Positions 17,982 through 22,688 of a stretch of DNA of 25,890 nucleotides are shown in pieces. This DNA is from Chloroflexota bacterium (GTDB lineage: Bacteria > Chloroflexota > Ktedonobacteria > Ktedonobacterales > Ktedonobacteraceae), in the NCBI GenBank assembly GCA_902810755.1, contig CADDYT010000082.1, forward strand, positions 1 through 25,890, written 5' to 3'. The notes beneath the pieces were generated by a model. It saw only the letters and a program-made list of their open reading frames with translations. It was not told the origin of the DNA and made no database searches. Each line of letters starts with the position of its first letter. Position 1 is the stretch's first letter. Position numbers and translations under genes: made by a program.

Positions 17982-20231
17982 TTAGAGTTGTACCAGGATG
18001 ATGCCGAGTGTTGCCAGAGCCGCCGCCAGGATTTTGAGGGCGACGTGGCTGTCTTCTTTCAAAATCACGATACCGGCCAACGCTGTCAGCAGCGTTGAAC
18101 TGGCCGAGAGGGCTACCACCTGGGGGACGTTGCCCAGCTCAAAGGCTTTGAGCAGGAAAAAGAAGGAGATATCCATCACCGCCGCGTTCAGCAGGATTTT
18201 CTTCCACTGGACGCGCAGCTCATAACGCAGCTCTGATACTTTCGGGCGCAGGAAGATGAACAGGTTGGCGATGGCGGGGAAGAGGAAGGCCGCGAGCATG
18301 TAGGGGGGAATGGAAAAGCTTTTGACGACTTCACTGTTGAAGCCCAGTGCCACGCCCTGAAAGAGGCTGTACAGCAGCGCGAAGATGATGCCTTTTGACG
18401 GTCGCACGCGCAGATAGCGCAGGCCGATCAAGAGCGAAGCGGTCATGATGATGAGGAAGCCGATCACGATAGTCGAGTGGATGGCAGAGTGAAGGAAGAC
18501 GACGCTGACGGCAAAGGTGAATACGTAGTTCAACGGGAAAATGGCCGAGAGGATGCTGGCTTCTTCATATTTGAAGGAAGAAAACAGGAAAGCATCGACC
18601 AGCGCCCACAGGATGACTGAGAGCGCGAAGAGCAGCAGCACGCGCGGGCTGGCGTCGATGGAGAAGCGGTCAAACGGGAGGAAAAAGGGAACGAGCAGCG
18701 CGCAGAATAACTGCCACAGGATCGTATAAGCCGATTCGTGTTTCGTTGTTGACAGACTGACGCGCGAGATGATATTGAAGCCAACAGTGAAGGCAATTGA
18801 CAGGACAATGCATAGCCCCAGCAGGAGCTGCGGCTTCCCGAAGAGGTCTCCCTGCCCTACCGGTTGTCTGAAGAACAGCAAAACTCCGGCGGCACCGGCT
18901 ACAATCAGGACAGCTACGGTGGTGATTACTATGTTCCGTCGGTCAGTTTTGCGCGGCAATGCAGCCTGAAGATCATTACCGGTATCTGTATTCGTATCTG
19001 GTAAATTCTGGAAGGTGGATGACCCTGTTTTCTGTCCGGGCGGCGTTGCCACTCTGGGAAGTGTTGGTTTATCTGAGAGGTCTTCGGGGGTGAGTGGTAA
19101 TGTTGCCTGCCCGGGTAGCGCCCGTATTCTTTTGAGGGTGGGACTGTCTGATAGATCCTCTCCGCCCTCTACCAGGAGCGAGCGTGCTGGCTGTGAATAC
19201 CGCGAGCCGTCATGGCCATCGACAACGGTTGGTTTATCGGTGTCTGATTCATGCCTGCCAGTTACCTGAAGGTCTATATGTTGTCTTTTTGCCTGTGGCG
19301 TTTCAGGAACAAAGGGCTGTTGAACCGGCCCGGTAAGTGCGGAGATGAGGGCTGATGATAGCTGGTTGCGCGCATTGGGGTTGACCGCGCGGTGATAGGC
19401 CTCTGCCAGCGCACCCGGTTGCTGGAATCGCTGCTTCGGATTCTTTGCCATCGCCTTGACGAAGATGCCGAAGAGTCCTGGCGGTAAATCGGCGCGCCAC
19501 CGGTTGGGCGGGAGAATGGAGGCGTACAGGTGCTGGCTGGCAAGCTCTTGCGGTGTGTAGCCAGAAAAGGCAGGCTCTCCGGTCAAAAGATGGTAGAGAA
19601 CGGCTCCCAGAGCATAGACATCGGTGAACGGGCCAACAGGCTTGCCCGTTAATTGCTCTGGCGCGCTTCCTTCACCGGCTCTTGCATCCAGATCAGAGAG
19701 TTTGCCATCCCGTTGCAGATCGAGCAGGCTGAACAGGCCCAGATTGGCTATCAGCAGGCGTCCATCTGGTTGCAGGTAAATGCAATCAATGGTGAGGCTT
19801 TCGTGCAGGATGCCATGCTGGTGGGCATATGCCAAGGCGCCACAAAGCTGGTCAAGGCAGTGTCCTGCCATGAGAGCGTCCATTGGTCCGTTGTTATCCA
19901 GCCAGCTACGCAGCGATTGCATAGCGACCTGCGGCATCACCAGAAATGGAGTGTCGCCCTCTACCCCGTAATCGATCACCGGTAGCAGACAGGGGTGGCG
20001 CAGGGACGCAAGCTGACCCGCTTTCTGCTCAAAACGCGCCAGATATTCGTCCCGCTTGCCGCTGTTCAGGGAGGTCGATTCTGTGAGCAAGCGCACGAGA
20101 CAGGTAGCGGAACTCTTCTTAGAGTGTGCCAGGAAGAGAGGAGTATGGTAGTCAACTGCCAGCAATTGCTTGAGATGATGCTGTCCGAACTGCGCTCCGA
20201 TAAACTGCTCGAATGCCCCTTGCTCGATCAT
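17982..20231 (-). CDS. Pseudokinase fused to an EamA/DMT-type transporter domain
   Basis: A single 749-residue frame. Residues about 15-285 have a Ser/Thr kinase shape: RHPCLLPVIDYGVEGDTPFLVMP, SAPEQLTGKPVGPFTDVYALG (APE and the helix-F Asp) and NPKQRF near the end. The catalytic parts are lost: no glycine-rich loop, VAIK Lys replaced by Arg47, HRDLKPxN replaced by HESLTID (143-149), DFG replaced by NLG (163-165). Residues 285-430 are a Pro/Thr/Asp-rich linker with a 17-residue repeat (DLSDSPTLKR at 359, DLSDKPTLPR at 384). A helix at 433-454 is followed by ten more (about 465-749), with the two-fold EamA/DMT permease look. So a dead kinase may sense a ligand or partner and gate a small-molecule permease; this is inference. 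Start has CAGGA about 10 bases upstream. Confidence 0.8.
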   Translation of the reverse strand: MIEQGAFEQFIGAQFGQHHLKQLLAVDYHTPLFLAHSKKSSATCLVRLLTESTSLNSGKRDEYLARFEQKAGQLASLRHPCLLPVIDYGVEGDTPFLVMPQVAMQSLRSWLDNNGPMDALMAGHCLDQLCGALAYAHQHGILHESLTIDCIYLQPDGRLLIANLGLFSLLDLQRDGKLSDLDARAGEGSAPEQLTGKPVGPFTDVYALGAVLYHLLTGEPAFSGYTPQELASQHLYASILPPNRWRADLPPGLFGIFVKAMAKNPKQRFQQPGALAEAYHRAVNPNARNQLSSALISALTGPVQQPFVPETPQAKRQHIDLQVTGRHESDTDKPTVVDGHDGSRYSQPARSLLVEGGEDLSDSPTLKRIRALPGQATLPLTPEDLSDKPTLPRVATPPGQKTGSSTFQNLPDTNTDTGNDLQAALPRKTDRRNIVITTVAVLIVAGAAGVLLFFRQPVGQGDLFGKPQLLLGLCIVLSIAFTVGFNIISRVSLSTTKHESAYTILWQLFCALLVPFFLPFDRFSIDASPRVLLLFALSVILWALVDAFLFSSFKYEEASILSAIFPLNYVFTFAVSVVFLHSAIHSTIVIGFLIIMTASLLIGLRYLRVRPSKGIIFALLYSLFQGVALGFNSEVVKSFSIPPYMLAAFLFPAIANLFIFLRPKVSELRYELRVQWKKILLNAAVMDISFFFLLKAFELGNVPQVVALSASSTLLTALAGIVILKEDSHVALKILAAALATLGIILVQL

Positions 20232-22061: not shown

Positions 22062-22649
22062 CTATCTCCGCAGGATAGAAAGGCCTGTGCCGGTCAGTAT
22101 CACGCCACTACTGATGGCTATCCAGAGCCAGAAGAACTGCGGCAGCAGGTAGTAGCCGGGCAACGAGAGCAGGGTAATGACCACCCCTATGCCGATGAGC
22201 GGCTTCAGACGCAGCCATGTTCCTGTGACGACATAGCCAAACATGACGAAGGTGATCCAGAGCAGCGCCACCTGTTGCGCGTGTAGCGGCTGTGCAATCA
22301 AGAGCCAGACAAGGCTGTAGAGTGTCAGGGCGGCAAAAAACAGGCCGATACGCGCTCCCAGGTTTGCCAGATCGGAACCGGGCGTTGCCCGTATTCGTTC
22401 GCTCTGGCGCCTGCCTTGCAAGAGACCCAGCGCCATAGAACTCAACATGCCAACAATCAGCATTGCCAGGAGTACCGGACCGGTCAGAGTTGCCGGTACA
22501 AACTGGCAGACAAGAAAGCCGAAGAACCAGACCAATCCCCAGGCCACCTGATACACTGCACCTAACATCTGCACGTGCCGCATTTTTGCTGTGGAAAGCC
22601 TGACCGCTTCAAGGGCCTCCTGCGCTTCCTCTGGCGATATTTCCATCAT
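22062..22649 (-). CDS. Multi-helix membrane protein, partner of the winged-helix regulator
   Basis: About 195 residues from the ATG at 22649, which lies 8 bases from AAGGAG; the ATG at 22655 is only 2 bases from it. After a soluble N-terminal helix (EISPEEAQEALEAVRLST) come about six hydrophobic segments in three pairs (roughly residues 25-70, 95-125, 130-192). I do not recognise a family with certainty; it is of the kind annotated as hypothetical membrane protein beside a small HTH regulator. It shares an operon with the downstream winged-helix gene, two bases away. It may be a membrane sensor or a stress-response protein, but nothing proves this. Confidence 0.75.
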   Translation of the reverse strand: MMEISPEEAQEALEAVRLSTAKMRHVQMLGAVYQVAWGLVWFFGFLVCQFVPATLTGPVLLAMLIVGMLSSMALGLLQGRRQSERIRATPGSDLANLGARIGLFFAALTLYSLVWLLIAQPLHAQQVALLWITFVMFGYVVTGTWLRLKPLIGIGVVITLLSLPGYYLLPQFFWLWIAISSGVILTGTGLSILRR

Positions 22650-22688
22650 GTTCATCGCTCCTTCTCACTACAAAGGACTCTGTAATAA

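Follow-up and report, generated by a model that had tools for sequence, protein, structure and literature searches.

What could a bacterial cell use a protein for in which a protein kinase without its catalytic residues is joined to a membrane transporter? This question is raised by a single open reading frame on the minus strand (17982..20231) of a 25,890-nucleotide stretch of Chloroflexota DNA, the whole of which is referred to as the window. The frame begins with ATG, runs unbroken through 749 codons and stops at 17982-17984. On the minus strand throughout, it encodes a Hanks-type pseudokinase domain (residues 1-285; 19377..20231), a disordered linker rich in Pro, Thr and acidic residues (residues 286-430; 18942..19376), a single transmembrane helix termed TM0 with basic residues just before it (residues 431-454; 18870..18941), a short joint (residues 455-466; 18834..18869) and a 10-TM DMT/EamA domain (residues 467-749; 17985..18833).

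Both halves are recognized by Pfam: Pkinase at 60.9 bits (residues 72-274), above the cut-off, and EamA in two stretches at 43.7 bits against a cut-off of 28.2. Neither RskA_C nor MurJ was matched in this protein at E 0.1; the DMT domain occupies the place of the former, and the membrane half is a DMT domain by Pfam and by fold. In a sequence search of the PDB, the best match was mycobacterial PknB (E 4e-30), and a profile of the DMT half retrieved only a chance-level row (E 0.91). A fold search on that half did better and it has the 10-TM DMT fold, so that the preliminary description was right to call it a true DMT permease. The model of the whole protein had low confidence over the DMT part (pLDDT 44-78 per ten-residue block), and TM0 plus the DMT domain was therefore refolded alone. 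The linker is delimited by pLDDT below 50 at residues 288-435, and TM0 by hydropathy and by helices in the models.

The fusion recurs in Ktedonobacteraceae

A protein search found ten more proteins in which both halves are present (identity 49-97%, length 747-781 aa); nine of these are full-length and one, P0012, is without the N-lobe. With the window's own copy this makes 11 fusions, 10 of them full-length, in addition to a kinase-side fragment of 484 residues (P0007). The source names of the fusion homologues are Ktedonobacteraceae; the preliminary description had proposed looking for the fusion in other Ktedonobacteria. A sequencing or gene-calling artefact is ruled out, as the fusion recurs on different contigs, and separate kinase and transporter genes are not what the homologues have, since they keep both halves. 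The fused protein is thus confirmed as real, and it recurs in some soil Ktedonobacteria; the anatomy given in the preliminary description was correct wherever it was checked. Compared pairwise, the 11 fusions average 81.5% identity in the DMT domain, 56.3% in the kinase domain and 42.2% in the linker.

At E 1e-5 a search with the DMT half gave 148 relatives. The 120 of these that were listed are of three kinds: proteins consisting of the DMT domain only (mostly 281-282 aa), proteins of the linker-TM0-DMT type (388-475 aa) and partial proteins. Stand-alone DMT proteins of Ktedonobacteraceae (P0127, P0133 and others) share 64-83% identity with the fusion over the DMT domain and have the same loop charges, but they are without linker, TM0 and kinase and mostly 281-282 aa long. 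No copy of the DMT half was found at E 1e-15 in 47 genomes of the order of genome G221, a set without a known positive, so that this absence shows little; the order was taken as Ktedonobacteria because the closest pseudokinases were found in it. A scan of genome contigs gave four loci, none of them a fusion, and no viral carriers were found.

The kinase domain lacks catalytic residues across the family

The window copy lacks the glycine loop, and the VAIK Lys is replaced by R47, the HRD Asp by S145 and the DFG Asp by N163; Lys, HRD Asp, Asn and DFG Asp are all missing together. With a protein-kinase fold and the loss of these three residues, the domain is a Hanks-type Ser/Thr pseudokinase. It is not of the GLW family of bacterial pseudokinases, which is described as having GLW instead of HRD (PMC12599244); the window copy reads HES at this site. 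The main text of that paper mentions neither Chloroflexota nor Chloroflexi, and the paper describes bacterial pseudokinases as largely unexplored by experiment.

The VAIK Lys is missing in all 11 scorable fusion rows (12 rows including P0007; P0012 is gapped there), in 21/21 relatives of the RskA_C group, in 5/5 relatives on the Rieske side, in 13/13 genome loci and in the second domains of both tandem proteins described below, and it is kept in all 11 control kinases and in the first tandem domain of L113. The HRD Asp is retained in four relatives, the DFG motif in four fusions (P0009-P0012) and the kinase Asn in one fusion, P0009. Taken over the alignments, the kinase appears to be dead at the level of the family. 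The residues that keep the fold are present: the APE Pro in 10/11 fusions, and the APE Glu and helix-F Asp in 11/11. In the preliminary description the dead kinase was taken to have retained its structure, and this conservation bears that out.

In two cases, P0018 and L113 (6937-10191), one chain holds in tandem a Ser/Thr kinase that looks active and a pseudokinase; P0018 continues by eye into an RskA-like part, for which Pfam reported no match. These tandem proteins indicate that pseudokinases of this family can be coupled to an active kinase.

Origin by ectodomain replacement and later loss of the kinase

Among the closest known relatives of the kinase side are pseudokinase-TM-RskA_C proteins. 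They have a homologous kinase, TM0 and joint with the same dead motifs (P0016: 55% identity over 42% of the query), but carry an extracytoplasmic RskA_C-like domain and are without the PTLKR motif of the fusion linker. RskA_C was matched in 5/6 scanned pseudokinase relatives, at best with 27.9 bits, which is under the Pfam cut-off of 29.4. When a TM0-plus-joint profile built from 29 of the 35 fusion and linker forms was compared by hhalign with one from 15 of the 21 RskA_C-group relatives, the score was 81.1 (E 1e-17); 200 column shuffles averaged 17.0 and reached at most 27.1. The joint consensus, approximately LxGQVTFFDSS (GQVTFFDS), is eroded in the window copy and plain in relatives. The DMT part starts where stand-alone DMT proteins start (MILLGLCIVL in P0127). 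Since TM0 and the joint are shared and the DMT start is that of a stand-alone protein, the alignments indicate that in a pseudokinase-TM-RskA_C receptor-like gene the ectodomain gave way, just after its first residues, to a whole stand-alone DMT ORF; the joint is what remains of the ectodomain start. The earlier suggestion that a permease sits in the place of a receptor's sensor domain therefore holds.

The later history was read from a tree of 118 rows, for which 16 of 130 DMT-domain rows had been dropped because they were truncated or their start was unsure; the alignments A3 and A5 comprise part of the homologues. The 11 fusions and 24 linker forms fall into one supported group of 36 (100/92), the 36th row being P0150, which starts inside TM1. 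The DMT-only protein P0127 is sister to this group, and the fusion label changes at least four times on the DMT tree. The outgroup is very distant, which makes the root of this tree unsure. The 24 linker forms keep TM0 and DMT without the kinase. Several of them begin like the first 14-18 residues of the kinase protein and then enter the linker, the jump being at three different points (the P0124/P0130 type, P0125 and P0176). This N-terminal remnant scores above the best of 1200 shuffles in 4/24 kinase-less rows (P0124, P0125, P0130, P0176). Other kinase-less proteins start within the linker, and four of the kinase-less rows (P0126, P0129, P0135, P0141) may be 5'-truncated gene models. By the tree, the kinase seems to have been lost more than once. 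Gating by the kinase fold itself, one of the possibilities raised in the preliminary description, becomes doubtful as the main function because the kinase was lost in this way and the linker, TM0 and DMT were retained.

Predicted orientation of the DMT domain

EamA proteins usually have their N-terminus inside. To predict the orientation here, Lys and Arg were counted in the loops between the ten helices, odd against even. Odd loops carry more positive charge in 79/79 DMT-only proteins (mean 13.5 vs 3.4) and in 11/11 fusions, and the bias is reversed (even over odd) in 23/24 control ORFs from three presumed Ktedonobacteria genomes; these were picked by length and hydrophobicity from loci with EamA matches, and C16, C17 and C22 may not be EamA. 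The even-loop charge of the usual N-in/C-in EamA topology is thus absent from the fusion family. By the positive-inside rule, the charges predict an N-out DMT domain, opposite to ordinary EamA paralogues. An N-out DMT is also what a cytosolic kinase, the basic stretch and TM0 would require.

The same odd-loop bias occurs in 22 TIGR03340-like proteins with an HxxWN signature, whereas L102, a weak match, shows the usual bias; within L079-L101, TIGR03340-like DMT proteins have positive odd loops, as if N-out. The reversal is therefore probably older than the fusion. The window DMT resembles TIGR03340 phn_DUF6/EamA in a collinear weak match of 27.2 bits and in a profile score of 70.8 to the TIGR03340-like set, but with a cut-off of 288.15 bits the fusion DMT lies far below that equivalog and does not belong to it.

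Circularly permuted DMT halves were first suggested by crosswise profile matches and then rejected, because the TIGR03340-like set is collinear both to ordinary EamA (121.5 vs 111.8 permuted) and to the fusion family (70.8); four of the 24 control ORFs were dropped from the profile comparisons. Against this rejection, direct comparison preferred the permuted order with K/R masked (38.9 vs 25.0) and with K/R/H/D/E masked (35.3 vs 20.4), a preference taken as weak-similarity noise.

A conserved threonine motif in the linker

The linkers of the long forms have a conserved motif, EDxSDSPTLKR[IV]PAxPxQT, in which one Thr is invariant. In the window protein, the first copy is EDLSDSPTLKRIRALPGQA (residues 358-376; 19104..19160, minus strand), with Thr365. 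The second, EDLSDKPTLPRV (residues 383-394; 19050..19085, minus strand), with Thr390, is a reading of the sequence that does not match the strict core; repeats of the motif are present in homologues too. The core occurs in 34/35 fusion and linker forms, P0141 being the one without it. When the Thr position was left open in the pattern, Thr was found in 49/49 places; in a stricter count that required it, Pro precedes Thr in 46/48 instances and Arg follows at +3 in 44/48, and shuffled linkers have the motif in a mean of 0.57 and a maximum of 3 of 35. Thr365 to Arg368 are invariant in an alignment of 14 rows. The PTLKR motif was not found in the 106 non-DMT proteins of the protein search, which suggests that it travels with the DMT domain. 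Judged from sequence, the conserved unit is the linker motif together with TM0 and DMT.

Gene neighbourhood

Same-strand genes upstream of the fusion encode an acyl-CoA thioesterase/BAAT-like protein, a winged-helix regulator, an uncharacterised ORF and an L-lactate permease, and the same-strand gene downstream has a metallo-beta-lactamase fold. The uncharacterised ORF of 197 aa (22062-22655, minus strand), between the winged-helix regulator and the lactate permease, had no Pfam or NCBIfam match at E 0.1. Other scanned ORFs of the window are of PaaA/PaaC type or encode AMP-binding, Fe-ADH, FAD-oxidase with Fe-S, isocitrate/isopropylmalate dehydrogenase, carbonic anhydrase, MFS and TetR proteins. 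Among the 20 ORFs scanned with Pfam (of 56 of at least 100 aa), the fusion gave the only kinase match, and PP2C and FHA gave none.

FHA matches number 17-37 per genome in 5/5 genomes searched. In 5/14 neighbourhoods, those of L107, L109, L114, L116 and L117, a pyridine-nucleotide oxidoreductase-FHA gene is adjacent to the pseudokinase gene or, in L114, separated from it by one gene; these pseudokinases are cousins and not the fusion. Those of L107, L109 and L117 carry Rieske domains in Pfam (three checked), and L109 also has a cNMP/4Fe-4S gene nearby. These five neighbourhoods possibly represent a redox signalling cluster.

Another EamA protein, extended at its C-terminus, is encoded at L076 (533-2065), L077 (5658-7277) and L078 (5436-6677); downstream of it follow a TM protein (631-668 aa) and a PP2C-type gene (called by Pfam in L077 and by eye in L076 and L078). 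Relatives of this EamA protein occur in 20/47 genomes of the order of G221, and the three loci are another instance in which DMT proteins are linked with Ser/Thr phosphorylation.

Possible functions of the fused protein

The preliminary description knew of no described system of this layout. This was too strong, as it overlooks mycobacterial MurJ/MviN, in which domain order and transporter family are other ones. There, a flippase carries a pseudokinase of the ActPs3 family, and phosphorylation of the tail by PknB recruits FhaA (PMC12599244). As far as PMC6180346 describes it, the pseudokinase is non-essential, and the cell may be unable to do without the linker that precedes it. The two systems have in common a polytopic transporter and a non-catalytic kinase domain in one chain, and the loss of the kinase in the linker forms is a close parallel to the dispensability reported for MurJ/MviN in that source. 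However, a 14-TM MurJ comes first there with the pseudokinase C-terminal, while the fusion has an N-terminal pseudokinase, TM0 and a 10-TM DMT domain, and phosphorylation of the Ktedonobacteria fusion is something we infer. By analogy, the fusion may work like MurJ/MviN without being a member of that family. In a search that covered mainly open-access literature, no EamA-kinase fusion was found by title or abstract start.

Much as in MurJ/MviN, the fused protein probably allows a transporter to be adjusted by cell signalling. More specifically, we prefer, at somewhat less than an even chance, a transporter with a cytosolic regulatory module, in which a non-catalytic kinase-fold scaffold belongs to a MurJ-like switch. 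The kinase would be cytosolic, TM0 would cross outward and the DMT domain would be N-out. An active co-resident Ser/Thr kinase would phosphorylate the linker Thr (DSPTLKR) in trans, an FHA-domain protein would read the phospho-Thr, and the activity or location of the transporter would change. The pseudokinase would be an optional scaffold that helps to dock the active kinase or the reader. The FHA matches in all five genomes searched and the redox-FHA genes close to cousin pseudokinases lend this proposal indirect support. FHA ligands usually have I, V, L or D at +3, and the Arg found there in nearly all instances of the motif speaks against this proposal. The FHA neighbours belong to cousins and the 20 scanned window ORFs are without FHA or PP2C matches and, apart from the fusion, without kinase matches, which also weighs against it, as do the HRD Asp retained in four relatives and the DFG retained in four fusions, and the loss of the kinase may mean that the kinase does little.

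The protein could instead be a transceptor, as the preliminary description also suggested: the DMT domain would be the sensing domain of a receptor, with substrate binding or flux altering the kinase fold or the linker so as to signal to partners, and transport may then be secondary. The DMT domain did take the place of a receptor ectodomain at its start, sister pseudokinases carry an RskA_C-like or Rieske domain at that site, and tandem proteins join an active kinase to a pseudokinase (P0018, L113). However, 24 linker forms without the kinase keep the DMT domain, which also stands alone with the same conserved core, and we regard a sensing role as unlikely. A decaying pseudokinase, tolerated as a leftover of the fusion in a protein of which only the DMT domain matters, would fit its lower conservation (56.3% against 81.5%) and its loss from the linker forms, but the fold residues and the open frame persist where kinase identity among fusions goes down to 39%, and the kinase is better conserved than the linker, so that decay without a role is rather improbable. 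Another enzymatic activity, as in SidJ and SelO, which have been classed as pseudokinases (PMC12599244), is very improbable for a domain that in the window copy lacks all four of the residues named above, from the VAIK Lys to the DFG Asp, although P0009-P0012 keep DFG and P0009 keeps Asn.

The regulated-transporter reading can be extended to the origin of the gene: a receptor-like pseudokinase gene may have exchanged its ectodomain for an N-out DMT domain, giving a transporter switched by trans-phosphorylation of the linker Thr and an FHA reader, as an invention independent of MurJ. The swap would have been made possible by a DMT branch reversed in the membrane relative to ordinary EamA. This fuller account is possible but doubtful. 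If it is true, a pseudokinase-transporter switch of the MurJ type was reinvented in another phylum and with another transporter superfamily. The fusion suggests two separate origins of coupling between a kinase fold and a transporter, and draws attention to a DMT branch that would lie the other way round in the membrane. In addition, the family forms a natural deletion series, in which DMT occurs by itself, together with linker and TM0, or with the kinase in addition to these two, and which allows one to ask directly what the pseudokinase and the candidate phospho-motif add to a transporter.
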